Positions 12,025 to 52,623 of a DNA stretch of 53,482 nucleotides are shown piece by piece (position 1 is the first letter of the stretch; each line of letters opens with the position of its first letter). Origin of the DNA: an uncultured Lachnospiraceae bacterium (GTDB lineage Bacteria; Bacillota; Clostridia; Lachnospirales; Lachnospiraceae); contig CATOOV010000018.1 of assembly GCA_951801955.1 (NCBI GenBank), positions 1-53,482 of the forward strand, written 5' to 3'. The position numbers were made by a program, and so were the translations under genes. The notes below the pieces were generated by a model. The model made no database searches. It was given only the letters and a program-made list of their open reading frames with translations, and had not been told where the DNA came from.

Positions 12025-12897
12025 TTATACCGTCACATCCACCACCGCGGCTGCTTCCATTCCTGCACTATCAGACATTGCCATATCCCCTGCAGATGCC
12101 AATGACAAATCAGGTGATACACTTGTCATGCCAAGTTCAGCCTGAATTATCATTTCTACTTGTTGTTCTATTTGTTCTTCGTTCAGTCCTAAAGCCGCGT
12201 CACTAAGTTCCATCTCTACCCCCTCTATGGGCAGATATACCATATTATAATTTGCAGCAGAACTATTTTCTCCACAATCACGCCCCATATTATTTTTATA
12301 TTCCCGATCTGCCTCATCCATTTTCCCTTGTTCTTTCAGTCGATTCATCCTCCGCCTTCTGATCACTTCCTGTTCATGCATTTTTTGTTTATGGGCTTTT
12401 TGGATCTTCTCCATCTTCTCTTTCTGCTCTATGACACGTTTTTTTTGTTGTATCTTGTGCTTCCTCTCAATTTTTTGCTGCTGCTCCTCCCGCTCTTCCC
12501 GTTTGGCATAACGTTTCTGTAATTCTTCTTCTTTCTTCAAATTACGGCTTTTCATTTGTGCACACTGAACCATCCTCCTGGCATGTACAATTGCGTTGGA
12601 AAGCTCTGTCTCATTAAATTGTCCGCTCCCTTTCCATTTCATTAATGAACTCAGTTTTCCCTTTGCCTGAACCAAAACCCTTCCTGCACTTTGTGATTTT
12701 GAGGCAAGCATAAGGGCATTGCGAATTTCTCTCGGATTATAATTTAACTTTTTCTTGGGAAGTTTATTTTTATTATTTGCTTTGACACTGTTTGTATTTT
12801 TCTTGTTGTTACGTGATACATTTATGTTCGCTATTCCTTTAGCAGATGATCCTGCACCACCTGACAATCCTCCAAATTGATAAGATGTTGCTTTCAT
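12025..12897 (-). CDS. Coiled-coil protein of unknown function, Lachnospiraceae type
   Basis: 290 residues, start ATG after AAGGAGGAAAC. The N-terminus is Gly/Asn/Lys-rich. A conserved-looking core (about 48-120) contains KKKLNYNPREI, ASKSQSAGRVLVQAKGK and NAIVHARRM. A long basic/acidic coiled coil (120-205) and an acidic, Ala/Ser-rich C-terminus follow. There is no signal peptide or membrane helix. I do not know a function. I recall similar proteins across Lachnospiraceae, with the same style as the helical proteins at 34-41 kb, so they may belong together. It sits just downstream of the ribosomal superoperon terminator and has its own possible promoter. Confidence 0.7.
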   Translation of the reverse strand: MKATSYQFGGLSGGAGSSAKGIANINVSRNNKKNTNSVKANNKNKLPKKKLNYNPREIRNALMLASKSQSAGRVLVQAKGKLSSLMKWKGSGQFNETELSNAIVHARRMVQCAQMKSRNLKKEEELQKRYAKREEREEQQQKIERKHKIQQKKRVIEQKEKMEKIQKAHKQKMHEQEVIRRRRMNRLKEQGKMDEADREYKNNMGRDCGENSSAANYNMVYLPIEGVEMELSDAALGLNEEQIEQQVEMIIQAELGMTSVSPDLSLASAGDMAMSDSAGMEAAAVVDVTV

Positions 12898-31085: not shown

Positions 31086-31274
31086 CGACAAGCGGTGACT
31101 GTACACTTCTCCGTGTGTGTCATAAGTTCCACACGGAATTCCTCTGCTCTCTCGCAGATTTTTTATTGTGATACAGTGACTTGTCGCCAGTTTCCTAACT
31201 TGACATTCGCTCCACGGAAAACCTGCTCTTCACTTCGCAGCAACCTCACGCTTCATCGCTATCATGCCACAGCA
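31086..31274 (-). promoter_or_regulatory. Structured leader of the S10 operon
   Basis: The leader from the predicted start near 31274 to rpsJ is about 226 bases. It contains a perfect 8-bp stem, TCCGTGTG/CACACGGA at 31110-31137, enclosed by a longer-range pairing CGACAAG (31086-31092) with CTTGTCG near 31180. Ribosomal leaders often bind an r-protein; no known leader family was recognised. Confidence 0.45.
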
Positions 31275-31897: not shown

Positions 31898-33055
31898 TTG
31901 AAACAAATATTAATTTTAGAATGGGAAAACCAATTCCAGTGCGTTGGTGGAAAATGCCCGCTGACTTGCTGCGGAGGATGGAAAATTGAACTTTCAGACG
32001 AGGAGGTAAAATGTTATCAAAACTTATCTCATCCGTTTGGGAAAGAGATAGTAAACGCGATCGATGAGGAAAAGAAATGTATCAAACAGTCTGGCAACAA
32101 GTGCCCTCTTCTGACAAAAGATGGATGGTGCCGGATTGTTCAGGAATGCGGGGAAGATTATTTGTCATATACATGTGCAGTATTTCCAAGAAAAACGCAT
32201 ATATATGGCGATACCATTGAGACATATGTTGAAATTGTCTGCCCGGTTGTTGCCAGTTACCTGCTAAAACCCTCAAAAATCGTTTTTACTATAAATGAAT
32301 TAGATGATACGGCGGAACAGGATGCGGACTATCAGTTATATGATGCTTTATCTTTTGCGAGAACTTTTCTGATTGCATTATTCCAGACATATGACAGGTT
32401 ATACAATACGGGAAAATGTTACATATTGCTTAATATCATAAATGCAGTCAAACAATTATACCAAACAGGAGATTTAAATAAGGAAAATCTTATTTCCCAG
32501 TTACTTCCATATGACCGGGAAGAAAATTGTATGGAGATATTTCATGCCTGTGAACAGATCGCGTCAAATTTGGAGCTGAAATCAAAAAGGTTCCATATGG
32601 TTATTACCAAATTAGCAGAAAACAAGATGCTGGAAATGCTGCTTTTTTTTGTAAAATCTGAAGAACTTTATGAAAATTTTAATCATTGGTTAAAAGATTT
32701 CAGGCAGCTTCAAACAGATATACAGGCATTTATTCCTTATTTTAGAAAAAATTATGCTTGTCTGGTTGAAAATTATTTTGTATATGTATTATTTCTGGAC
32801 TGGATTCCTCAAAAACATAAAATGGAAGGATTCGGTGAAAACATAAAAATAAAAATTGTGGAATTTGGATTAATTCAATTATGTGCGATGTCGGTCTGGA
32901 AACAACATGGCAAAATCCAGGAGGAAGAATACAGCGTGATCATTTCTGGAATTGAACGGGTCGTGGCACATGACCCAGAAATGGCAGGGAAACTTATTAA
33001 TCTGTTGGAGGAAGAAGACAGTATTGCAAAGGTGTTGCTTTTATTGCTTTGTTAG
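31898..33055 (+). CDS. fliB: FliB-family flagellin lysine-N-methylase
   Basis: 385 residues, starting at TTG after GAGAGGGAG (no better start). The N-terminal third has the family's cysteine pattern: C15, C20, C24-C25 (FQCVGGKCPLTCCGGW), C69, C78, C84 and C93 (NKCPLL, GWCRI, ECGEDYLSYTCAVFPR), which likely hold an iron-sulfur centre. The C-terminal two thirds are helical and poorly conserved. FliB methylates surface lysines of flagellin in Salmonella. No flagellar core genes are visible, but FlgL/FliD-like proteins occur 8 kb away. Homologues also occur in non-motile Lachnospiraceae, so the substrate may not be flagellin. Confidence 0.85.
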   Translation: MKQILILEWENQFQCVGGKCPLTCCGGWKIELSDEEVKCYQNLSHPFGKEIVNAIDEEKKCIKQSGNKCPLLTKDGWCRIVQECGEDYLSYTCAVFPRKTHIYGDTIETYVEIVCPVVASYLLKPSKIVFTINELDDTAEQDADYQLYDALSFARTFLIALFQTYDRLYNTGKCYILLNIINAVKQLYQTGDLNKENLISQLLPYDREENCMEIFHACEQIASNLELKSKRFHMVITKLAENKMLEMLLFFVKSEELYENFNHWLKDFRQLQTDIQAFIPYFRKNYACLVENYFVYVLFLDWIPQKHKMEGFGENIKIKIVEFGLIQLCAMSVWKQHGKIQEEEYSVIISGIERVVAHDPEMAGKLINLLEEEDSIAKVLLLLLC

Positions 33056-33592: not shown

Positions 33593-33829
33593 TTACCCAC
33601 ATATCTTATTGATCCAATCCACAAAGGTTCCTGTAGTAGTTCCTTCATTGCTGCCATGTCCCATTGCCCAGACAAGTGCATAATCGGATTCTAAGCCGAC
33701 CACCTGTGCAGCGAGGCAAATATTGTATGCTACTGAAAAAGACGTATGCTGGTCTGCTGTCCCATTACCATAACCAGCTACTGCTTGTCCACCTTCTTTG
33801 AGTTTAAAATTATAAATGGGCAATGTCAA
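33593..33829 (-). pseudogene. C-terminal fragment of a tannase-like alpha/beta hydrolase
   Basis: 78 codons. The segment DQHTSFSVAYNICLAAQVVG, then YALVWAMGHGSNEG and TGTFVDWINKICG, resembles the end of secreted tannase/feruloyl-esterase-type hydrolases, with the catalytic His in MGHG. The rest of the enzyme, including the nucleophile Ser, is absent upstream, and no ribosome site is seen. Assignment from memory of the family; a decayed remnant in any case. Confidence 0.5.
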
Positions 33830-33998: not shown

Positions 33999-34640
33999 TT
34001 ATCCTCTGCAGTCCAGCATGGACATCCATTCGTCCTTAAAAAACTGCTCCAACAATACCTGCTGGCTGTCCTTCCCTGAAAAATTTTGCTCCATTGGCAG
34101 AACATTCCCTTCCTGGGTTTTATCTGGCTGTGCCTGGGATTTGTCATTTCCAAGTTCTGTCTGGGAAGGTGCTTTTTTCTGTTTTTCCTGAACTGCCTCT
34201 TTCACTGCTTCCCCTAACAGCATTCCGAACTGTTCGTTTGTTTTGCTCACCTGCAATACCATCTGGTATGCCTGTTGAACAATATTCTGTTGTTCCTCTT
34301 TGGTCGAAGCTTGAGACAAAGCATGTTTGATGCGCTCCCCTTCCTGCCTCGCCATCTCTGCCATCTGTGCCAGCTGGGGATCCACTTCCATCAAAAACTT
34401 TTTTTCCTCTGGCGATACCGATGCTCCTCTTGCAATTTTTTTCGCAATTTCCAACGCTTTCTTTCTGTCCTTTTCTCCGTCTTCCACCTGTTTGGGCTCC
34501 AAAAGCTGCGAAAGGACAGATTTCTTCTCCCGCGTCTGCTCAACGCCAGTCACATTACGGATAACCTGTGACACATCTACAGATTTGCTCCTCATCTGTT
34601 TTTTGGTTTCATCTATCTCTACCGGCATAATAATATACAT
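33999..34640 (-). CDS. Helical protein of unknown function, last gene of the 34-42 kb cluster
   Basis: 213 residues; ATG 7 bases after GGGAGGG. Highly charged, no signal peptide or membrane helix. The central part (about 60-140) has KKALEIAKKIARGASVSPEE, KFLMEVDPQLAQMAEMARQE and ERIKHAL; the C-terminal third is Gln/Lys-rich and flexible. I recall related proteins in Lachnospiraceae but know no function. It follows lgt by 77 bases on the same strand and shares its helical, Gln/Lys-rich style with the proteins at 38.9-41.4 kb, so I place it tentatively in the same cluster. Confidence 0.7.
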   Translation of the reverse strand: MYIIMPVEIDETKKQMRSKSVDVSQVIRNVTGVEQTREKKSVLSQLLEPKQVEDGEKDRKKALEIAKKIARGASVSPEEKKFLMEVDPQLAQMAEMARQEGERIKHALSQASTKEEQQNIVQQAYQMVLQVSKTNEQFGMLLGEAVKEAVQEKQKKAPSQTELGNDKSQAQPDKTQEGNVLPMEQNFSGKDSQQVLLEQFFKDEWMSMLDCRG

Positions 34641-34717
34641 AACAAAACCCTCCCATCATGCGATTCTTCCTTTGAATTTTATATCGGCATGAAGGAATTA
34701 TCTATTAATATACTATT

Positions 34718-35464
34718 TTACTCTGAACGTTTTCCAGCAAGCACGAACATCCCAATTCCAAGTATTAAGATAAATATGGAAATGATCTGTGAGGTGGAGA
34801 GAATTCCCCATTCTCCCCGGTAATCATTTCGGAATATTTCTATTACAAAACGACCAATACTGTATAGAATGCAGTAGGAAGCCGCCACTTTTCCTTTGGC
34901 TGGTTTCCTCTTTGCGTATGCCATCAGCGCAAATGCCATCACGAAATCTCCAATGCTGGAATAAATTTGCGTTGGAATCAACTTTACTCCGTTTGGTGCA
35001 TACTCTGACTGCCAGTATTGAATATGAAGGATGGAATCCGTTTCCCTTCCATAACAGCATCCAGCAAAAAAACAGCCAATCCGCCCACAGCCTTGGGCAA
35101 ACGCCACCGCCGGGAGCACCAAATCCAGATATTGGACAAAATCTGCATGTTTATAACGGCAATACAATATACTTGTCAAAACACCTCCAATGATTCCGCC
35201 ATACACCACCCAGCCATTTTGAAAATTCCACAGGATAGAAGGATTTTTTAATATATCAGAAATATTCACAGTAAAATAGAGCAATTTGCTGCCCACGGCG
35301 CCCCCAATAACTGCACACCAAAAAATACCATATAAGATATCTGTGTCCATCCCCCTTTTTTTTGCACGTCTCTCACTAATTAAAAACGCGCTCAAATAAC
35401 CCACCGCAACCAAAATACCATATAAATGAAGCGTTATTGGTCCAATCTGTATATCATTGATCAT
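34718..35464 (-). CDS. lgt: Prolipoprotein diacylglyceryl transferase
   Basis: 248 residues with seven membrane helices; start MINDIQIGPITLHLYG (35464) after GGGAAGAG. Signature motifs HLYGILVAVGYL, GWVVYGGIIGG, GRIGCFFAGCCYG and RFVIEIFRNDYRGE are present. It transfers diacylglycerol from phosphatidylglycerol to the lipobox Cys of prelipoproteins. Such genes may be present in more than one copy in Lachnospiraceae. It lies between the DUF255 gene and the 213-aa gene on one strand, so it may serve the cluster, though no lipoprotein is seen in it. Confidence 0.92.
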   Translation of the reverse strand: MINDIQIGPITLHLYGILVAVGYLSAFLISERRAKKRGMDTDILYGIFWCAVIGGAVGSKLLYFTVNISDILKNPSILWNFQNGWVVYGGIIGGVLTSILYCRYKHADFVQYLDLVLPAVAFAQGCGRIGCFFAGCCYGRETDSILHIQYWQSEYAPNGVKLIPTQIYSSIGDFVMAFALMAYAKRKPAKGKVAASYCILYSIGRFVIEIFRNDYRGEWGILSTSQIISIFILILGIGMFVLAGKRSE

Positions 35465-35641
35465 TTTCTCTTCCCTTTCTACTCTTTTTGCCTGATTAAG
35501 ATTATACGAAATTCTCACTGGCATTGCAAGGGAAGTTGCATATTCGCATTTTCATTAATTTCCAATTAACATTGCGCCGATGACTAATATAGAAATGCCT
35601 ATTTTTCCATCCCCTTTGATTTCTTGTTTCCAGAGCAGTCC

Positions 35642-37570
35642 CTATAGATTTATTGGCGGGCTGCAAGTATTGTCTTTGCATATATAGAGCGTTGTTTTAT
35701 CATTTATCATGGGATATGCTGCATTGCCATTCTGGAGTACAAGAATATCCGCCCCGTCTCGTTTCTTTTGCTGCAATTGTTTTAAATCTTCCTCCTCCTT
35801 CCATACACAGACGACATGCTCTGGCGGGTCCTCCCAAACCAGTTCGGCAAGAAGAAAAAAACTCTGCCCCACAGGGTACCCCTGTGCAGCCCCTGCAAGG
35901 AAACCCATCTGGCGCTTTGCCAAAGTTTCCCATCCTGCTTCCCCTGTAATCTGCCAAAGTTTTACCAAATTATATGCCATTACAGAGTTTCCGCTTGGCA
36001 TTGCCCCATCATAAGTCTCTTTCGGTCTGCTTATCAGGGATTCATTTTCTGTCCCATACAGATAATATCCGCCATTTTTCTGATCTTCAAATAATGCATG
36101 ACCTTTGCGGCAATAACTCGCAGCTTTTTCCAAATATGATATTTTTAAAGTGGCACGATAGAGCTCCAACAAACCAAACGTAAAAAAAGCATAATCATCC
36201 AAAAAGCCCTTTCCCTGGATCCTGCCTTGGCGGACGCTTACAAAAAGCCCTTCTGGTTCTGCATATTTTTCAATACATGCACATGCACGCTCGGCAAGAA
36301 TTCGATAAGGCTCCTTGCCAAGCACACGGTACATCCCTGCAAACGCTCCAATCATCATTCCATTCCATGCCGTCAAAATTTTATCATCCAAATGAAGGCG
36401 GCTGCGCTTTTTCCGGTAATCATAGACTTTTTCTAGATGTTCTTTCGGAATCACACCCTCTGGTTTCTTTAACAAATTAGGAATATTTTTTCCTTCAAAA
36501 TTTCCCTCTGGCGTAATATTATAATATTTGTTAAAAGCTTTCCCAGATATCTCTCCCAAAACCTTTATCACCTCATTATAACCAAAGACATAATATCTGC
36601 CTTCGATTCCCTCGCTGTCTGCATCCTGGGCAGAATAAAAGCCGCCCTCTGGGGCGGTCATTTCTCTTTGAATGTATTGAGCCGTCTGTTCTGCAATATT
36701 CTGATAAACTTCCTTCCCAGTCACACAGAATGCCTGGGTATAACACATCAAAAGCAATGCGTTGTCATACAGCATTTTCTCAAAATGAGGAACCAAAAAA
36801 TATTCATCTGTAGAATATCTGGAAAATCCATACCCTATATGGTCAAACAATCCTCCCCGATACATCTGCATCAATGTCTTTTCCGCCATAACTAGGGCAT
36901 ATTTTTCTTGTCTTGCTTTGTAATATTCCAATAAAAACATCAAGTTGTGGGGAGAAGGAAATTTAGGTGCATTTCCAAACCCTCCATGAATCCTGTCAAA
37001 ACTGTGCTGGAACAGGGAAAATGCCTGATCTGCTAATTTTTCCCTGCCTTTGCGTCCATAAGACTGTTGTCCCTCCTTCTGAAGCTGTCTGGTAATTTCT
37101 TCTGCCGACTGGAACAAGCCGTCCCTGTCTTGCTGCCATTTCTCCCAAATCGCTTTTAACACCTCTAATAAACCTACGCTTTGATAAGAACTTCTTTTTG
37201 GAAAGTATGTGCCTGCAAAAAACGGTTTCTGGTCCGGCGTCATAAAAATACTGGCAGGCCATCCCCCGTTTCCTGTAAACAACAGGCATACAGACATATA
37301 CACACTGTCGATGTCTGGACGCTCCTCTTTATCCACTTTAATAGAGATAAAATGCTCATTCAGCTCCTGCGCTACTTCCTGGTCCTCAAAACTTTCATGC
37401 GCCATCACATGGCACCAGTGGCAGGTGCTGTAACCAATACTTAAAAATATCGGTTTCTCTTCCTGTTTTGCCTTTGCAAATGCTTCCTCACACCAAGGGT
37501 ACCAGTTTACCGGATTGTCTGCGTGCTGCAGTAAGTAAGGGCTGGTTTGATCTTTTAAATAATTTTTCAA
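35642..37570 (-). CDS. DUF255 thioredoxin-fold protein (YyaL/SSP411 family)
   Basis: About 642 residues. I prefer the TTG at 37570, 8 bases after GGCGAGG; a GTG three codons earlier overlaps that site. The N-terminal thioredoxin-like domain has NPVNWYPW, then [11 protein letters not shown] with its CxxC pair, and [20 protein letters not shown]. The rest is an (alpha/alpha)6 barrel similar to N-acylglucosamine epimerases ([26 protein letters not shown]). Function of the family is unknown in bacteria. Cytoplasmic. It lies 62 bases after the membrane-protein gene. Confidence 0.9.
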
Positions 37571-37632
37571 CTTTATCACCTCGCCCTTACTATTTACGTT
37601 TTTTCAGACAGATATTCCAAAAAACTACTTTT

Positions 37633-38817
37633 TTAATGATCCGGCTCTGTTTCGATCTCTTCTGACTTATTTTCAAATTCTGCCTGTACCATTTCCTGTT
37701 GGTTTGTCCCTGTGGTCTCCGAATCTATTTCTACTTCTTTTCTTTTCCCTGGTTGCTTTGTTCCTATGTATTCCGACTCTGTTTCTATAATCTCCTCCAG
37801 CGTCTCCCACCGATCTGTCCCTGTGACGATTGACCCTGTTTCTGTTACCTCCTCCAGCGTCTCCCCTTGCTCTGTACCTGTGATTCCTGACTCTGCTGCT
37901 GAGGCTTCCCCCATTATCTCTCCCTGCTCTGTACCTGTGATTCCTGGCTTTATTCCTGCTTCCCCTTTCTTGGTTTTTTTGTTTTTAAAATGGGCGAAAA
38001 ATGACGCTTTTCGCTTTGCGCGTACTTCTGATTTCCGTCTCTTTTTATTTTCCTTTTTCTCTGCTTTCTCCCTGATCTTTCGATTCCTTTTGATTTCCTT
38101 TCGTGCAGTCTTTTCAATTTCCCGAATTGTATCCCTCGCTTCCTCCACCACACGTTTGTCCCCCCGGTAAGGATTATAGAGAAAATAAGCGGCTGTGCCA
38201 ATCACCAGCACGCCAATACCAAAAATCGTAAATATCGGCAATAACAGCCCATATTCCGGGTAATTCAACTCATAACAAACAAAAATCACCATCATTAAGG
38301 GAAACATTAATAAATAAAGTGTCTTACAAAGCAGGTGAAACCATCGTTTCCGTTTCTTTTCCTGGGCGAGAAGCGCCCCTTGAATCCCAGAAAATGCCAA
38401 CATAAAGAGACAAATCTCCGACTGAAATCCATGAAGAATCCCACATAGCGCTACCAATACAATTGAAAGAAAAAATAAAGAAAACGCACACCCTTGATAG
38501 TATGCATTCCGATATTCTCTCATTCCCTGAAGTTTATCCTCCGTTATCCCATACATGGCGAATACCTGGGCATCCATATGTTGTTGAAATTCCTGATTAT
38601 ATTTTTTTGCCTCCTTGGTACACTCCATATTCTGATTGATAGACATTTTCAGGGCATCCAATACTTCCTGCTCTTGTTGAATTTGTACAAATAACGTGTC
38701 TTCTGCTTCCCGCTGCCTCTGAATCTGTTCCTGAATCCATTGCGTCTTGCGAATGCGCAAATTTTCCCTTTTCTGTTGTTCTTCTGATATATTTTGTAAT
38801 TGCTTCTTTTCTTCCAT
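37633..38817 (-). CDS. Four-helix membrane protein with coiled coil and C-terminal repeats
   Basis: 394 residues from the ATG at 38817, 6 bases after GGAGAAAGG's GGAG; the frame is open further, but that part contains an RNA hairpin (38837-38864) and no ribosome site. Residues 1-105 are coiled coil (Gln/Glu/Lys-rich). Four membrane helices lie at about 110-129, 134-150, 162-184 and 189-213. A very basic stretch (230-285) and about five degenerate 19-residue repeats (GITGTEQGE, TLEEVTETGS) end the protein. No family recognised. It may be the membrane anchor of the cluster; that is inference. Confidence 0.75.
   Translation of the reverse strand: MEEKKQLQNISEEQQKRENLRIRKTQWIQEQIQRQREAEDTLFVQIQQEQEVLDALKMSINQNMECTKEAKKYNQEFQQHMDAQVFAMYGITEDKLQGMREYRNAYYQGCAFSLFFLSIVLVALCGILHGFQSEICLFMLAFSGIQGALLAQEKKRKRWFHLLCKTLYLLMFPLMMVIFVCYELNYPEYGLLLPIFTIFGIGVLVIGTAAYFLYNPYRGDKRVVEEARDTIREIEKTARKEIKRNRKIREKAEKKENKKRRKSEVRAKRKASFFAHFKNKKTKKGEAGIKPGITGTEQGEIMGEASAAESGITGTEQGETLEEVTETGSIVTGTDRWETLEEIIETESEYIGTKQPGKRKEVEIDSETTGTNQQEMVQAEFENKSEEIETEPDH
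37666..37944 (-). repeat. 57-bp tandem repeats in the membrane-protein gene
   Basis: Five imperfect 18-19-codon units, each with a (I/V/T)TGT(E/D/N)(Q/R) core, e.g. GITGTEQGEIMG, GITGTEQGETLE, IVTGTDRWETLE. The first two are almost identical at DNA level; the later ones have diverged. Confidence 0.75.
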
Positions 38818-38836
38818 ACCTTTCTCCATATCTTCA

Positions 38837-38864
38837 AACAGCCCTGCCTTACGGCAGGGCTGTT
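38837..38864 (-). promoter_or_regulatory. Perfect 12-bp stem with GTAA tetraloop between two cluster genes
   Basis: AACAGCCCTGCC-GTAA-GGCAGGGCTGTT on the minus strand, in the space between the 139-aa gene and the membrane-protein gene. The loop is of GNRA type. Only TTT follows, so it may be an RNA-processing or stability element that sets different expression levels rather than a full terminator. Confidence 0.6.
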
Positions 38865-38945
38865 CGCGGCTCATTCGTTCCAAGACCTGTTCTTGTAAGT
38901 CTTGAATAAAATATACCAAAAAAAAACAATATTTTCAATACACAG

Positions 38946-39365
38946 TTACAGGCTGCAATTCCCCTTTCCTTTTTCCAACGCTTCTGCCAGTTCAAAATTG
39001 CACTCTGAAAAGCTTTCCATCTCAGTGTGGCTGTCATTCTGCATATCTGTGGCATCAGAAATTTTCAAACTTGTAGTAATCTCCATTCCTGCAGCCTTGA
39101 CGTTTACCAAGAGCACTCTGGAACCATCTGGCTTTACAATAATTTGCGTTTCCGTCTGTCCATCGTCTTTGGCTGTATCTTCTCTCTGTTTGGAAAGTTC
39201 CTGCTGGTTATCCTCTTTTCTCTTTAAATATTTCTCTTCCTCTGGCTGTCCTGTCTTGTCCTGGCGCCATATTTCGGAAAAACCCACGTTTGGAACTTGC
39301 ATGTTTCTCTGCTTTTTCGTCTCATATCCAGCCAGAGCATTCATATAGATTCCATTAATTGCCAT
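38946..39365 (-). CDS. 139-aa protein of unknown function in the cluster
   Basis: Start MAINGIYMNALAGYETKKQR after AGGAAGGAT. Soluble; the N-terminus is followed by a Gln/Lys/Glu-rich stretch (45-75) and a small predicted beta-rich part (about 78-105) with QIIVKPDGSRVLLVNVKAAG and EITTSLKISD, then an acidic tail. I do not recognise the family. The short N-terminus of the type MAIxG/MRVxx is similar in style to its neighbours, which suggests a common way of sorting or folding; that is inference. Confidence 0.65.
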   Translation of the reverse strand: MAINGIYMNALAGYETKKQRNMQVPNVGFSEIWRQDKTGQPEEEKYLKRKEDNQQELSKQREDTAKDDGQTETQIIVKPDGSRVLLVNVKAAGMEITTSLKISDATDMQNDSHTEMESFSECNFELAEALEKGKGNCSL

Positions 39366-39479
39366 AGTTTTATCCTTCCTGGTAGAAAATTACGCGTATT
39401 CTGCATCAAATCATTGATACCAGATAATTACAAATCCACAAGATTCTTCATTGGCACGCAATGATTAATTGTCCCATTC

Positions 39480-39563
39480 CTGAACTATTTATATCTATAT
39501 TTCTTCCTGGGATTTTCCGTACTGAACTATTTATATCTAAATCCTCTTCCTAAAATTTTTCGT
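39480..39563 (-). repeat. 42-bp imperfect duplication at the 3' end of the receiver gene
   Basis: CTGAACTATTTATATCTA occurs at 39480 and again at 39522, and the following bases also match imperfectly. The duplicated piece contains the last codons and stop of the receiver gene in the same frame, so a second 'RYK-stop' lies beyond the real one. Confidence 0.6.
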
Positions 39564-39910
39564 CTCTCCGCCTCCAGGACCGCCCGCTCAAAGACTTCTC
39601 CAAATGCCTTCTCTTCCACAGGCTTCCACAAGTAATGTACGGTCGCCATATCATCGTCAGATTCTTTCTTCCCTGTCAGGAAAACCAGTACCATATCCTT
39701 CTGCCGCTTTCTTAAGGTTCTTGCAGTCTTACGATTTTTCTTTTCAGCCAAACCATTCTCCATAAAAATGATATGGAAGGACTGCTTCGCTCTTAACAAC
39801 TCTTCCCCTGCCATACTGATAATTCGGCAGTCTGACCGCTGTTTTCCTATCAGGTTTATAATTTGTTCTCGAATAGATTCGTCCTTTTCTACAATTGCAA
39901 TATCAATCAT
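39527..39910 (-). CDS. Stand-alone LytR/AgrA-type receiver domain with Glu at the phosphorylation site
   Basis: 127 residues, receiver only, no output domain. The acidic cluster (VEKDE, residues 7-11), T79 (FLTGK) and K96 (LWKPV) are kept, but the phosphoacceptor position in HIIFMENGL is E51 instead of Asp. Glu often mimics the phosphorylated state, so it may be constitutively active or a binding partner. The start is preceded by GAGGTGAG. A 9-bp inverted repeat lies in its leader. It shares the Asp-to-Glu change with the LytTR regulator at 41.5 kb. Confidence 0.75.
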   Translation of the reverse strand: MIDIAIVEKDESIREQIINLIGKQRSDCRIISMAGEELLRAKQSFHIIFMENGLAEKKNRKTARTLRKRQKDMVLVFLTGKKESDDDMATVHYLWKPVEEKAFGEVFERAVLEAERRKILGRGFRYK

Positions 39911-39949
39911 AACTCACCTCAGAATATCCATAAGTTTCATGATATTTTA

Positions 39950-39975
39950 CCATATCTGCCTCATGAGATATGGTA
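39950..39975 (-). promoter_or_regulatory. Inverted repeat in the leader of the receiver gene
   Basis: ACCATATCT and AGATATGGT form a perfect 9-bp palindrome with an 8-base centre, about 40 bases before the start codon. It could be an operator or an RNA stem. Confidence 0.4.
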
Positions 39976-40019
39976 TGGCACCCTATATCACGTTGTATTA
40001 TTTTGGAATGTTGGACCAC

Positions 40020-40787
40020 TTACCAAACTTTTCCCAATACCTGCCGCCAATGAGTGCCAATAGACAAATTCAGGCTGTATTGGTGAAAGGAATTTACTTT
40101 GTGCCTCAGCCGTTCCAAGTTCTTTTCTGAAACAGCCTCCATACAGGCTTCTTTTGTCTTTTTCTCAATGTCTTCTGGTTTTTCTGAGAGTTTTTCTTTG
40201 CCGAAGGCCTCTTTTATCTGCGCCATGGCTTTTTTGGATGCCGCTAAGAATGTAGTGTGCAGGTCATAAGCATGATTCAGCTCTGCCAGCCTATCCTCCA
40301 CAGTTTCCTCTCTTTGCGCTTTGGTGACTTCATCAAATATATACGTTGTGTCCCTGTCATCTCTGGCAAATTCATCCACAATCCGGTCATGGACCACTTG
40401 ATATGCCTTTGCCATAAGCGTAAGGGAAGTATCAAAAGAATTTCCCTTACACTCACTTCCCCAAGCAGCACGCTCCTCATTCATTACCTGCTGCATTTCA
40501 CTTAAAAAATTATTGGTATAATCCATACTTTTTAAATGAAGCTGCTTATCTAACTCTTCCAAATTTGCCTTGAGATCTATCCTGTTGTTCAAACCCTTTT
40601 CATTCAGATAGCCCCTCATTTCTTTGGCATTCCTAAGCCCCTCTTGGGAGAATGTGACTTTATCTTTTACAAATTGCTGAACTTTTGGTTTTAGTTCCTC
40701 TTCTTTGGCTTTCGCAGCCATTTCCTCATAAGTTGGAATATGCTTGTTCACCTTGGGAATTTCTGTCCTGCCTGCATAAATTTTCAT
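40020..40787 (-). CDS. 255-aa helical protein of unknown function in the cluster
   Basis: Start MKIYAGRTEIPKVNKHIPTY after GTGAGGCG, 11 bases after the FliD-like gene. Almost entirely helical and charged, with no signal peptide or membrane segment. Residues about 43-58 (DKVTFSQEGLRNAKEM) resemble the DxVxLSxEG motif common in flagella-associated small proteins such as FlgM; the rest is not recognised. The tight spacing with the FliD-like gene suggests the two products act together, perhaps as chaperone or export partner; that is inference. Confidence 0.7.
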   Translation of the reverse strand: MKIYAGRTEIPKVNKHIPTYEEMAAKAKEEELKPKVQQFVKDKVTFSQEGLRNAKEMRGYLNEKGLNNRIDLKANLEELDKQLHLKSMDYTNNFLSEMQQVMNEERAAWGSECKGNSFDTSLTLMAKAYQVVHDRIVDEFARDDRDTTYIFDEVTKAQREETVEDRLAELNHAYDLHTTFLAASKKAMAQIKEAFGKEKLSEKPEDIEKKTKEACMEAVSEKNLERLRHKVNSFHQYSLNLSIGTHWRQVLGKVW

Positions 40788-40798
40788 ATACGCCTCAC

Positions 40799-41446
40799 CT
40801 ATCCCCAGAAATTAAACTTGTTTGCCTCTGTAAAATAACTGCTGCCCATGGAGTTATATTGGCTTACCACACCACCAGCATTGACTTTGGCATTATCTCC
40901 AATCCGGTCTGACAAAAAGGAGATTTTTGCCGAAAATTTACCTCCAAGAACTGCCTGCAAAGTGTCTGAATCTGCCGCTTTGAGCTTATCTTCATCTATG
41001 CTCAATGTGCCGTCTTTTCCCAAAGTAATTCCAATCCCCTTAAGTGCCTCTTTGTCTTCTGTTGGGACTTCTGACAGAGCCTCCTTATAATATTTATTCA
41101 AGGGAGACGTGGTATTTTTCAATGCTTTTACTGTATCATTATAGTATTCTACCAAACTTTTTGCCTGGCTGCAGATTGCCTGGTTGTCACCACTTTCTTT
41201 TGCCTCTTCATATAGTTTCTTAGAATTCAGTACATCTGCTGCCTTTTGTAAATCCTCTGCCGTATTCGTCAGCTTTTCATAATTCCTCTTTTGTATCTGG
41301 GATGCTGCATTGCTTTTATTCAATCTGCTCATCAGATTATTGCTTTGCGCACTGCCGCCGTTTAGATAATTCACCAATGACATATTGTTCGTGGACAACT
41401 TTGCCCTTCTCATGGATGCATTCAACATTTGTGTCGTAACTCTCAT
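40799..41446 (-). CDS. Small FlgL/FliD-like (flagellar axial-type) protein
   Basis: 215 residues, ATG after AAGGAGGAAG. The N-terminus MRVTTQMLNASMRRAKLST resembles the start of hook-associated protein FlgL, and a coiled coil follows (to about 75). The C-terminal part has GIGITLGKDGTLSIDEDKLK and then FLSDRIGDNAK, like the D0/D1 C-terminal region of FliD. It ends in YFTEANKFNFWG. No signal peptide, as expected for flagellar-type cargo. It is far shorter than FlgL or FliD. It lies 25 bases after the LytTR regulator. Confidence 0.65.
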   Translation of the reverse strand: MRVTTQMLNASMRRAKLSTNNMSLVNYLNGGSAQSNNLMSRLNKSNAASQIQKRNYEKLTNTAEDLQKAADVLNSKKLYEEAKESGDNQAICSQAKSLVEYYNDTVKALKNTTSPLNKYYKEALSEVPTEDKEALKGIGITLGKDGTLSIDEDKLKAADSDTLQAVLGGKFSAKISFLSDRIGDNAKVNAGGVVSQYNSMGSSYFTEANKFNFWG

Positions 41447-41471
41447 ATTTCTTCCTCCTTAAACCATTGCG

Positions 41472-42182
41472 CTACCCTTTTGCTGCCACATAATCCAAGT
41501 ATGCTTTTACAAATTCTCCATGCTTATATTTTGAAATAAGCAGCTTTTCCCCATTTGTAAGGGTGACAGCCGTTTTGTTGTAACCATTCACAAAAGAAAG
41601 ATTAATCAAATATCCTTTATGGATTCGGAAAAACTGCCCGCTCAGCTCTTTCTCCAGTACTCCAATTTGGGCGTAATACTCCAACCTTTCATCCTTAAGA
41701 TGAAGCACTACCTTGTGTCCCTGGCTTTCCACATAGTAAATGCTGTCTATGGAAACTGCCTTGCTCACCCCAGCACACTGAATGACGAGCGGCGGTTTCT
41801 GCGTTTTCATTTCAAATAAAATCTGCTTTGCCGCCCGCTGGAAAACCTTCGAAAATTTTCTTTCATCTACTGGTTTCAGCAGATACTGGAATGCTGTCAC
41901 ATCAAAAGCATCATAGACATATTTTTCATAAGCTGTCACAAAGATAATTAGGGGCTGCTTTCCCGTTTTCCTGCTTCGGATTTCCTCTGCCAATTTCAAG
42001 CCGTCGCCTGGAAACTGCAAATTCATTTCTAAAAACAGCAGGTCATATTCCCGATTTTCTGTCAGATATTCTTCACTGGATTGGTACTGTGCAATTTCGC
42101 ATTCCACATGTTCTTTTTTGACAAGCTCCGAAAGGTAGATCCGCATATTCTTTTCCTTATCACATATCGCAATTCTAATCAT
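41472..42182 (-). CDS. LytTR-family response regulator with Glu at the phosphorylation site
   Basis: 236 residues; ATG after AGAGGAG. Receiver (1-120) with D8, T83 (FVTAYE) and K103 (YLLKPV), but the acceptor in YDLLFLEMNL is E52 rather than Asp. The LytTR DNA-binding domain follows at about 138-233 (SIYYVESQGHKVVLHL, GQFFRIHKGYLINLSFVNGY). First gene of the minus-strand cluster. No histidine kinase is near. It is likely to act without phosphorylation or to mimic the active form, and to activate its own operon; targets are inferred. Confidence 0.85.
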   Translation of the reverse strand: MIRIAICDKEKNMRIYLSELVKKEHVECEIAQYQSSEEYLTENREYDLLFLEMNLQFPGDGLKLAEEIRSRKTGKQPLIIFVTAYEKYVYDAFDVTAFQYLLKPVDERKFSKVFQRAAKQILFEMKTQKPPLVIQCAGVSKAVSIDSIYYVESQGHKVVLHLKDERLEYYAQIGVLEKELSGQFFRIHKGYLINLSFVNGYNKTAVTLTNGEKLLISKYKHGEFVKAYLDYVAAKG

Positions 42183-42325
42183 ATTCTCCTCTGCTTTCCC
42201 TATGTTTATCGGAAAGCGGAAAATATTTTTTTAGGTTCTTGGCACAAATTGACGCTTTTCTGACATAAGTGGATAAAAGAGTAAAAACAATGGGAACCGA
42301 CACCATTTTTCATCCCATGGTTCAC

Positions 42326-49638: not shown

Positions 49639-52623
49639 ATGAAATGCCAAAAATTTGTCGCATTGTTGTTGAGCTGTCTGATGATACTAGAAACTCCGTT
49701 TGTTTCTCAGGCAGCCGGTTTTTTGTCCGATCCTAATGAAAAATCCGTCGAGAATTCTCCCTCTTCTTTCAATAATTCTGGTAATAATACCACCAAAGAT
49801 GCTCTCTCTTCTTTGGATAATTCCAATTATAATATAAACGAAGATAACACTCCTTCTTCCAGTAACTCCAATGCCGAAACTGGTGAAGATCCTCTTTCTT
49901 CTTCCAATGGCTCTAACCAGGATTCCGCTGAAGATCCTCTTTCTTCTTCCAATGATCCTGACCAGGATTCCGCTGAAGATCCTCTTTCTTCTTCCAATGG
50001 CTCTAACCAGGATTCCGCTGAAGATCCTCTTTCTTCTTCCAATGGCTCTAACCAGGATTCCGCTGAAGAAAATACGTCATCTCTGGATAACCTTAATAGT
50101 GAAGGCAGCAGGAATAACCTCCCTTCCCTGCCTGGTACTGGCGATGAAGCTTCCAAAGATAACCTCCCTTCTTCGGATGGTCCTGATAATGAAGGCAGCG
50201 AGGATGACCTTCCTTCTCTGCCGGATTCCAGTGATGAAATTTCCAAAGACAACGTTACACCATCTATAGACTCCATAGAAGACTTCTCTTCCGCAGAACA
50301 GAAGCTTGTAGCAGATCTCAGAGTACTCTTAAATCATGATACATACAAGCTGAATACAGAATCCAAACTTCAATTAACAGCAGCCGTCTTTGATGCAAAA
50401 AAGACAAAAATTCCATCTGATTCCGTTGAAGTTTATTGGGTTTCTGATTCTCCTGATGTCGCTTCCGTGTCAGATCAGGGTGTCGTAAAAACCCTGAAAG
50501 CAGGACATGCTGTAATTACTGTGACCGCAGCAGTCAAAACGGCAAAGGAAACCCATATTGGCACCGCTTCCTGTACTCTTACTGTAAAAAACAGAATTTT
50601 TCTCAATAAAAAGGCATTAACATTATACACTTCCCAGACAGAACAATTAAAAGCAACGGCATTCCCACAGAGTACCATTCGTTGGAAATCTTCTAACAAG
50701 AAGATTGCTACGGTAAACTCCAATGGAAAAATCACCGCCAAAAAGGCAGGCACTGTCACAATTAAGGCAACGGCAAACAATGCTTCTGCTGTCTGCAGGC
50801 TTAAAATCAAAGCCTCTTCACTTAAGCTAGGCTCCAATCCAACCGTATATTTAGATAATCCCATTACTTTAAAAGTATCTGCTGTTCCCAAAAACACTGT
50901 GACTTTTAAAACATCTAATAACAAAATTGCTACGGTGAATTCAGCAGGCAAGGTTACTCCTAAAAAAACAGGAACAGTAACCATCACAGCTTCCTGCAAT
51001 GGTATAAAAAAATCCTGCAAAATTACAGTAAAAAAACCTACCGTACAAATAAATAAAAAGTCTTTGGTCCTTTTTTCACAAAACAATTATGCTTTAAATG
51101 CCAAGGCACATCCGGCAAAGAAGCTTACTTACCGCTCCTCAAATCCAGAGATTGCTACCGTAGACGAAAATGGAAAAATTACAGGGAAAAAGAAAGGAAG
51201 TGTGACGATTACTGCTTCCGTACCCGGCGCCAAAACTTCCTGTAAAGTGAAAATCCTAAAAAATGAATACAAGCTCAGCCGTACCTCACAGACTCTGATG
51301 AAAGGCAAAAGTGCTACCATTTACCTGCGCAATGCCTCAAACCCTGTCTCTTTTAAATTAACTGACCAATCTGTGGCTGAACTTTCCTCTTCTGGAAACG
51401 GTTGCACGATCACAGCACGTAAACCCGGAACTGCAACTTTACACGCATACTACAAAGTTTACCATAACGATGAATGGGTAACCTGCAAACGTTCTTGCAC
51501 AATTAAGGTAATTGGATCTGGAGTGATTCAACAGCAGGCGGCGGTGGCAGTAAAGGCGACTCGAAAATTAACATTGAAAAATATAAAAAGATCTGGCGTC
51601 CACATTAAAAAAACCACCTGGAAATCTTCCAATCCCAAGATTGCCTCCGTAAACCGCAAAACAGGGGCTGTCACTGGCAAAAATACAGGAACTGCAAAAA
51701 TTACGGCAATGGTATACTACTCAGACGGTACTTCCAAAGAATATGATACCAGCATAAAAGTCTCCAATCCAAAGACAAAAAATAACTGCACTGTAATTTC
51801 CCTAGGGAAAACACGTAAGATTTCTCTTTCCGGGCTGACTTCATACAGTACTGTATCATGGACAAGCAAAGATAATTCTCTTGCCTCCATCAGCCCAAAT
51901 GGAACGATACAAGCTGGATATACTTCTGGTAAAACAACCATAAATATTCGTGTGGATGGCAAGACGATCAAACATACCGTACATATTACAAACCCTGCCT
52001 TGACCAAAACAAATGCTACGCTGTCTCCTGGAAAGAAAACAAAAATAAAATTATCCGGCGTATCCTCCAAAAGCCGAATTACTTACAAATCTCAAAAAAC
52101 TTCTATCGCGACGGTAAGTAAATCTGGAGTCGTCACCGGACGGGGCAGTGGAACCACCCGTATCACAGTCACAGCGGATGGAAACCATTTTACTTTTGAG
52201 GTATCTGTCATAGCCAAACGCGCCCTAAACGCCTGTAAAAAAGGCTACAATATCATGTACAGCTCCACCTATAGCCAAGCACGGCGGATGTCTCACGGAT
52301 TCTATGACTGCAGTTCCCTTGTATTCCGCTCTTATGGCTGTGATTCAGGGCTTCTAGGCGGCAGCCCTACCTGGGCGCCCACTGCCGCTGCCATGGCATC
52401 TCATCTGGAGAACACCGGAAAAGTTATTTCCTATCATGGTATCAGCGCAGACAAGCTGCTTCCAGGAGATCTGATTTTTTATAGTTCCCCCAGATCGAAT
52501 GGACGATATAAAAATATTTACCATGTTTCCATGTATTATGGAAATAACCACCGATTAGAAAAACCTCTGCGATATTATTATCCAGAAAGCAATATTGTAA
52601 TGATTGCAAGACCTCTGCGCTAA
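49639..52623 (+). CDS. Large secreted protein with Ser/Asp repeats, Ig-like (Big_2) domains and NlpC/P60-like hydrolase
   Basis: 994 residues; ATG after AGGAGGTCTGTAAA. Signal peptide 1-26 (cut after QAAG), an acidic Ser/Asn/Asp-rich region (30-210) with four 15-residue repeats (83-142), several bacterial Ig-like Big_2 domains (about 220-860; e.g. NNKIATVNSAGKVTPKKTGT) and a C-terminal NlpC/P60-type domain with C891 (FYDCSSLVFRSYG) and H962 (IYHVSMYYG). It likely cleaves peptidoglycan peptides or amides while held at the surface; there is no LPXTG or membrane anchor. Monocistronic, own promoter. Confidence 0.88.
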   Translation: MKCQKFVALLLSCLMILETPFVSQAAGFLSDPNEKSVENSPSSFNNSGNNTTKDALSSLDNSNYNINEDNTPSSSNSNAETGEDPLSSSNGSNQDSAEDPLSSSNDPDQDSAEDPLSSSNGSNQDSAEDPLSSSNGSNQDSAEENTSSLDNLNSEGSRNNLPSLPGTGDEASKDNLPSSDGPDNEGSEDDLPSLPDSSDEISKDNVTPSIDSIEDFSSAEQKLVADLRVLLNHDTYKLNTESKLQLTAAVFDAKKTKIPSDSVEVYWVSDSPDVASVSDQGVVKTLKAGHAVITVTAAVKTAKETHIGTASCTLTVKNRIFLNKKALTLYTSQTEQLKATAFPQSTIRWKSSNKKIATVNSNGKITAKKAGTVTIKATANNASAVCRLKIKASSLKLGSNPTVYLDNPITLKVSAVPKNTVTFKTSNNKIATVNSAGKVTPKKTGTVTITASCNGIKKSCKITVKKPTVQINKKSLVLFSQNNYALNAKAHPAKKLTYRSSNPEIATVDENGKITGKKKGSVTITASVPGAKTSCKVKILKNEYKLSRTSQTLMKGKSATIYLRNASNPVSFKLTDQSVAELSSSGNGCTITARKPGTATLHAYYKVYHNDEWVTCKRSCTIKVIGSGVIQQQAAVAVKATRKLTLKNIKRSGVHIKKTTWKSSNPKIASVNRKTGAVTGKNTGTAKITAMVYYSDGTSKEYDTSIKVSNPKTKNNCTVISLGKTRKISLSGLTSYSTVSWTSKDNSLASISPNGTIQAGYTSGKTTINIRVDGKTIKHTVHITNPALTKTNATLSPGKKTKIKLSGVSSKSRITYKSQKTSIATVSKSGVVTGRGSGTTRITVTADGNHFTFEVSVIAKRALNACKKGYNIMYSSTYSQARRMSHGFYDCSSLVFRSYGCDSGLLGGSPTWAPTAAAMASHLENTGKVISYHGISADKLLPGDLIFYSSPRSNGRYKNIYHVSMYYGNNHRLEKPLRYYYPESNIVMIARPLR
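49885..50064 (+). repeat. 45-bp tandem repeat, 4 copies, inside the surface-protein gene
   Basis: Each unit encodes EDPLSSSNGSNQDSA; the second copy reads NDPD instead of NGSN. Copies 1, 3 and 4 are nearly identical at DNA level, so the array can change length by slippage without shifting the frame. Confidence 0.9.

Follow-up and report, generated by a model that had tools for sequence, protein, structure and literature searches.

A LytTR-linked operon encoding a headless FliD as a candidate accessory module of the flagellum in Lachnospiraceae

The window analyzed here is a stretch of 53,482 nucleotides from contig C18 (CATOOV010000018.1) of an uncultured Lachnospiraceae bacterium, whose 3.62-Mb genome (GCA_951801955.1) is distributed over 164 contigs and is 89% complete. 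It contains a minus-strand operon that encodes a LytTR response regulator, a 215-residue protein resembling the leg of the filament cap FliD (denoted headless FliD), and a 255-residue helical protein. On balance, the operon is probably an accessory module of the flagellum, with proposed sigma-28/LytTR control and export of the headless FliD. It apparently switches on with the late flagellar genes, often through its own self-activating regulator, and therefore looks like an unrecognized flagellar add-on and not a separate machine.

FliD is usually regarded as a structural cap that includes a head, and here a natural headless paralogue is kept across many motile Lachnospiraceae. If the proposed reading is true, these gut bacteria have a switchable means of altering the tip of the flagellum or of secreting a protein that resembles the cap. 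A previous sequence-only reading of the window had proposed an undescribed system. The pairing of an axial-type protein with LytTR is indeed a real and recurring module, but it is not separate from the flagellum. The open-access literature searched yielded no description of a module of LytTR and a FliD-like protein; one paper (PMC3754575) reportedly concerns the LytTR protein AgrA of Clostridium difficile.

The headless FliD and its association with flagella

The 215-residue protein scores 24.1 bits against Pfam FliD_C, just under the cut-off of 25.4, and three of ten homologues exceed that cut-off. Its predicted fold, from structure prediction and alignment to FliD, is that of the FliD leg (D1). 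FliD is composed of D0–D1 legs and a D2–D3 head, as outlined in the available part of PMC7316729. The D2/D3 head is not present in the 215-residue protein, and the alignment skips the stretch of FliD between both D1 halves. Outside the best-aligned core lie 51 N-terminal and 22 C-terminal residues, with low model confidence at both ends. The protein is conserved end to end among its homologues, and the N-terminus of the family carries a conserved pattern of its own, MRITxQ-LN, unlike FliD. Likeness to FlgL, which had been suggested alongside that to FliD, does not hold, as the protein has no Pfam match to the flagellin-type N/C domains and profile comparison with FlgL of its own genome gives an E value of 0.29. 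A hydrophobic signal sequence is absent from the 215-residue protein, and neither it nor the 255-residue protein has significant likeness to FlgM.

The homologue search extended down to E 1e-3; open frames of 434–499 residues in a few genomes are possibly other FliD paralogues. Most of the 80 named loci that carry a relative have a Lachnospiraceae title, and the rest are Eubacterium, Roseburia, Acetatifactor, Butyrivibrio, Blautia, and similar. Contigs bearing the module include those of Lachnospiraceae A2 and 3-1 and of Petralouisia muris, which are cultured, motile mouse-gut isolates. Two paralogues of 427 and 445 residues are encoded on contig C27 (L054 12514–13797 (+) and 2590–3927 (−)), near ribosomal and rpoB-like genes, with one-mismatch sigma-28-like promoters at −91 and −98.

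The source genome is flagellated. It contains seven Flagellin_N matches (one within a flgL-like gene), a single full-length FlhA, one FliA over the cut-off at 264 bits, and a full-length FliD of 746 residues. By eye, an operon on contig C45 carries fliS, fliD, flaG, csrA, fliW, flgL, two flgK-like genes, flgN, and flgM, with FlgM confirmed by Pfam. The part of this flagellar locus that was read contains none of the LytTR–215–255 operon genes. The sequence-only reading had noted the absence of rod, hook, motor, and export genes, which is correct for the window but not for the genome.

Occurrence of the 215-residue protein follows that of the flagellar export gene flhA closely. Among 145 relatives, 56 have a homologue (E 0.001) and 107 have FlhA. 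FlhA is present in 55 of the 56 genomes with a homologue, the exception being G010, which is 63% complete. Within the family, FlhA is found in 51 of 52 members with a homologue versus 12 of 38 without (hand count; Fisher p 2e-12). Across all 145 relatives, the association has a Fisher p of 1e-8; both p values ignore the kinship of the genomes and are not true probabilities. All 50 genomes of a further homologue-bearing set, taken from the 80 loci, have FlhA; L125 and L163 among them repeat G006 and G050. Ten more of the 80 loci were dropped, and the other 20 belong to genomes already covered, including L150 (identical to G010, the one genome that lacks FlhA). From this near-exclusive occurrence with flagellar export genes and the absence of a signal sequence, we infer that the 215-residue protein is a candidate flagellar export substrate.

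The headless FliD shares with FliD (HAP2) the D1 leg fold, the FliD_C motif, occurrence with flagella, and a late-gene promoter type. It differs in lacking the head, in its N-terminus, and in its short C-terminal end, and its gene lies outside the flagellar operon that was read and, in some family members, comes with a regulator of its own. The closest laboratory parallel comes from Pseudomonas aeruginosa, where, in the accessible part of PMC8533109, the FliD leg is essential and FliD devoid of D2 and D3 still makes working flagella. Both proteins consist of D1 without D2/D3, but the engineered version replaces native FliD (PMC8533109, in part), whereas the 215-residue protein is a natural paralogue beside a full-length FliD. 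The headless FliD is in this respect a natural counterpart to the finding, as given in that portion of PMC8533109, that the leg alone builds flagella.

Promoter, operator, and regulators of the operon

In Butyrivibrio fibrisolvens, the sigma-28 promoter consensus is TAAA-N16/17-MCGATAa (PMC3720852). The window promoter, TAAA-N17-CCGATAA, is an exact match to this Butyrivibrio-type consensus and lies 23 nt from the LytTR start codon. The motif is placed alike at the LytTR gene in G004, G027, G019, and G021, and is found there with an 18-nt spacer in G014, G015, and G022. In G002 and G012, which have no LytTR gene ahead, a sigma-28-type motif is immediately 5′ of the 215 gene. The exact motif occurs in 11 of 178 upstream regions (81 loci) versus 6 of 732 control regions (Fisher p 5e-5); one of the 11 (L138) precedes a kinase gene and may be a chance match. 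As a positive control, the motif was found at 13 of 24 flgM genes, including all 11 of this genus, the 24 genes being drawn from 30 loci, in six of which no open reading frame (ORF) was found. The −10 element alone lies at most 170 nt from 24 of 36 LytTR genes. These 36 were picked by position and by their hidden Markov model (HMM) score; a few of them (e.g., L173 and L194) are downstream of 215; L129 and L141 were scored without a −10 owing to a LytTR start called too far upstream, and L129 does have the motif. The operon promoter is apparently of the lineage's sigma-28 type, with predicted membership in the late flagellar regulon.

Upstream of the promoter is a putative LytTR-type operator of two 9-bp direct repeats separated by 12 bp, with a further 10 bp to the −35 element, so that the repeats are 21 bp apart. 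LytTR operators of the LytTR regulatory system (LRS) have the same 9–12–9 spacing ahead of the −35 element in the available part of PMC6193735. Across the 25 related promoters that have a −10 anchor, a lag of 21 is the sole repeat peak. At three or fewer mismatches, all seven window-type genomes and 9 of 12 kinase-type genomes have a single operator match, always at this promoter, with zero matches in the reversed control. The remaining three kinase-type genomes (G014, G018, and G025) have no operator match at all. Since the search patterns were built from these promoters, finding them is by construction, and the informative part is the absence of second sites at three or fewer mismatches. Within the source genome, by eye, a second LytTR gene on contig C144 (L093) stands behind 9–12–9 repeats and TAAA-N16-CCGATAT; after it, at the contig end, a membrane protein begins that is probably a kinase.

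Both receivers in the window have Glu in place of the phosphorylated Asp (LFLEM and IFMEN, by eye), in agreement with the earlier description of non-phosphorylatable regulators. That description does not extend to the relatives. Among 35 LytTR genes at related loci, Asp is present in 29, Glu in one, and the position is unreadable by pattern in five, and Asp is therefore kept in most related LytTR proteins and the Glu of the window is a local change.

Conservation of the neighborhood is partial. The 23 loci compared are 22 of the genus and G050, with the window excluded and G028 among those left out. Near 215, a LytTR gene is found in 20 loci on the same strand, the 255-residue family in nine, a 230-residue family in seven, and other window genes in two or three. 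In nine loci, LytTR and 215 are separated by a GHKL kinase gene (family assigned by Pfam in G014); a kinase was scored in 11 of the 23, of which G018 is an 80-residue overlap artifact and G022 a second system downstream. Loci of the window type have no adjoining kinase. In G050, a LytTR DNA-binding domain is encoded ahead of 215, beside genes that by eye are a chemoreceptor gene and che genes, and in distant lineages the 215 gene is often solitary. DUF255 and lgt were rejected as parts of the module, since they are near 215 only in the window and 2 of the 23 loci (G004 and G027). The outcomes foreseen as fatal to the earlier proposal, scattered homologues or a full flagellar locus that includes these genes, are not cleanly seen: the neighbors are partly conserved, and a flagellar locus is present elsewhere, with the part read lacking these genes.

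Proposed mechanism and alternative explanations

In the proposed mechanism, sigma-28 would permit transcription of the operon only after hook completion, when the late genes run. The LytTR protein, probably phosphorylated ancestrally by a neighboring GHKL kinase and now bearing Glu for Asp in the window, would activate its own promoter and thereby amplify the operon. The headless FliD, having no hydrophobic signal sequence, would exit through the flagellar export channel. At the filament it may act as an alternative or accessory cap or interfere with the normal FliD cap, with the 255-residue protein or another second-gene product as its putative partner. Because the FliD leg suffices in P. aeruginosa (PMC8533109), a role at the filament tip is conceivable for a natural headless FliD. 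Alternatively, given its short C-terminus, it may act as a competitor or be secreted. A more elaborate version, which we regard as doubtful, is a two-state switch where sigma-28 opens the operon solely in flagella-building cells, some of these cells then keep it locked on through self-activation of LytTR, and in those cells the headless FliD with a lineage-specific partner dresses or re-caps filaments. Such a switch, if true, would mean altered filament growth, tip adhesion, or a host-visible surface.

Several observations weigh against an accessory flagellar module under sigma-28/LytTR control. Just 22 residues are C-terminal to the FliD-like core, and both model ends are of low confidence. 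FliD has a longer C-terminal helix, and some of the leg that fits it to the filament may therefore be missing. Of 63 FlhA-positive family members, 12 have no 215 homologue, so flagella can do without the protein; likewise, the 215 family can do without the regulator, as a LytTR gene (by HMM score and position) is missing from 45 of 81 loci. Among 28 loci read closely, seven have the exact sigma-28 motif, 14 have one mismatch, four have two, and three have more. Genome-wide, the strict sigma-28 pattern shows no enrichment (20 matches versus 25 in the reversed control), which means that single matches mean little and that the claim rests on position and recurrence, and the promoters compared are related and not independent. 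Three of the flagellin genes lack even a near match within 300 nt, and one more, located on C45, has the exact motif ~143 nt upstream. The window repeat taken alone has a p of 0.13, and singly 13 of 24 anchored promoters reach p < 0.05.

The short C-terminal tail and the low-confidence model ends lend themselves to another explanation, in which the headless FliD leaves via the flagellum, does not assemble, and acts outside the cell, like FlaC of Campylobacter jejuni. In the available part of PMC4863622, FlaC is a secreted axial-type protein unused for motility, a precedent for an axial-type protein that possibly serves other than filament building. At many of the loci compared here, the 215 gene is solitary and away from flagellar genes. 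FlaC is, however, flagellin-like and not FliD-like, and that part of PMC4863622 mentions no LytTR control of it. This explanation is possible, though we consider it on the unlikely side. An intracellular role is improbable. Here the 215-residue protein would derive from FliD and either inhibit the LytTR pair or FliD or partner them in the manner of a chaperone, and its export (cf. FlgM) or binding would set the switch. Such a role would suit the same-strand proximity of LytTR and 215 and an operator that serves the 215 operon alone at the stringency tested, but it sits poorly with the lack of significant FlgM likeness in the 215- and 255-residue proteins and with the persistence of 215 at many loci without LytTR.

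The sequence-only reading had favored a non-flagellar apparatus, for the surface or for export, built from axial-type proteins, and the location of the genes outside the flagellar loci read, in a ribosomal-protein neighborhood, agrees with it. Its premise fails because the genome is flagellated, and the sigma-28-type promoter, the near-perfect co-occurrence of 215 with FlhA, and the lack of any export system seen within the window make it very unlikely. Equally far-fetched is an LRS-type switch, formed by LytTR and the 428-residue membrane protein as its inhibitor, that drifted beside a FliD relic. The 9–12–9 direct repeats ~10 bp before the −35 element of the operon are as in LRS (PMC6193735) and AgrA-type LytTR regulators, and a membrane protein is encoded downstream. 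Yet the gene next to the regulator is 215 and not a membrane inhibitor, and the 428-residue membrane gene is near 215 in just 2 of 23 loci, several genes away. The module further differs from LRS in its sigma-28-type promoter, in the receiver domain of its regulator, and in the kinase beside it in nine loci, and the 215-residue protein is conserved across its whole length. The reading as an accessory module of the flagellum remains the preferred one.

Gene layout and other likely sigma-28 genes

The nine minus-strand ORFs named by the sequence-only reading are all present (Table 1). The first genes are tightly spaced, as that reading had it, with gaps of 25 bp (LytTR–215) and 11 bp (215–255), followed downstream by gaps of 109, 161, 26, 53, 117, and 77 bp. 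The reported operon is flanked by the S10 ribosomal cluster (S10-Clostridia leader, 31181–31264) and an opposite-strand gene that by eye encodes a methyltransferase. Apart from the LytTR and receiver proteins, the helical proteins of the operon have no family match over the Pfam or NCBIfam cut-offs. The 428-residue protein, formerly described as a four-helix membrane protein with repeats, has a repetitive C-terminus (by eye) and three to four hydrophobic segments.

Table 1. Features of the reported gene cluster in the window
Feature	Position	Strand	Basis or occurrence
LytTR response regulator, Glu at the phospho-Asp place	41472-42182	-	Pfam LytTR and Response_reg over cut-off
215-residue headless FliD, leg/D1 only	40799-41446	-	
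255-residue helical putative partner, without known family or fold	40020-40787	-	
Degenerate receiver-only protein, subclade only	39527-39910	-	Pfam Response_reg below cut-off; near 215 in 2/23 loci (G004 and G027)
139-residue protein, subclade	38946-39365	-	No Pfam match, one weak NCBIfam match; 3/23 loci
428-residue membrane protein with repeats, doubtful member	37633-38919	-	Hydropathy; 2/23 loci
DUF255 protein	35642-37579	-	Pfam cut-off passed
lgt	34718-35524	-	Pfam cut-off passed
213-residue protein, likely in the sigma-28 regulon as a separate member	33999-34640	-	Orthologues and upstream GCCGATAT
Putative LytTR-type operator, direct repeats TCCACTTAT (42273-42265) and TCAATTTGT (42252-42244), 12 bp apart	42244..42273	-	Sequence reading
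Sigma-28-type promoter of the LytTR–215–255 operon, TAAA-N17-CCGATAA	42206..42233	-	Matches Butyrivibrio consensus; recurs in relatives
Sigma-28-like promoter of the 213-residue gene, TAAT-N16-CCGATAT, one mismatch	34681..34707	-	

Orthologues of the 213-residue gene occur in the genus, mostly sited elsewhere. GCCGATAT is upstream in 15 of 20 orthologues, and the whole motif within one mismatch is found in 11 of the 20 versus 2.2% of shuffles.

A 290-residue protein (window 12025–12897 (−)), once suggested as a functional partner, is present in 35 of 145 relatives, of which 34 have FlhA. It was rejected in this role; neither its gene nor 18 orthologues have a sigma-28-type match upstream at one or fewer mismatches. 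Two paralogues do have an exact sigma-28-type motif upstream. A 266-residue helical paralogue (L076 1622–2422) and a 327-residue helical protein (L082 1603–2586) are each encoded behind an exact sigma-28-type motif. FliB, the flagellin lysine methylase (window 31898–33055 (+)), passes the NCBIfam cut-off and is expected given the flagellated genome; it too had been suggested as a partner and was not retained as one.

Elsewhere in the window, a 78-residue ORF (33593–33829 (−)) resembles the tail of a broken hydrolase gene, and a recombinase-like fragment with a possible FRG-domain protein lies near the contig end (1177–2480 (−)), both by eye. A 994-residue likely surface protein (49639–52623 (+)) has, by eye, Ser/Asn-rich and Ig-like repeats and an NlpC/P60-like end.
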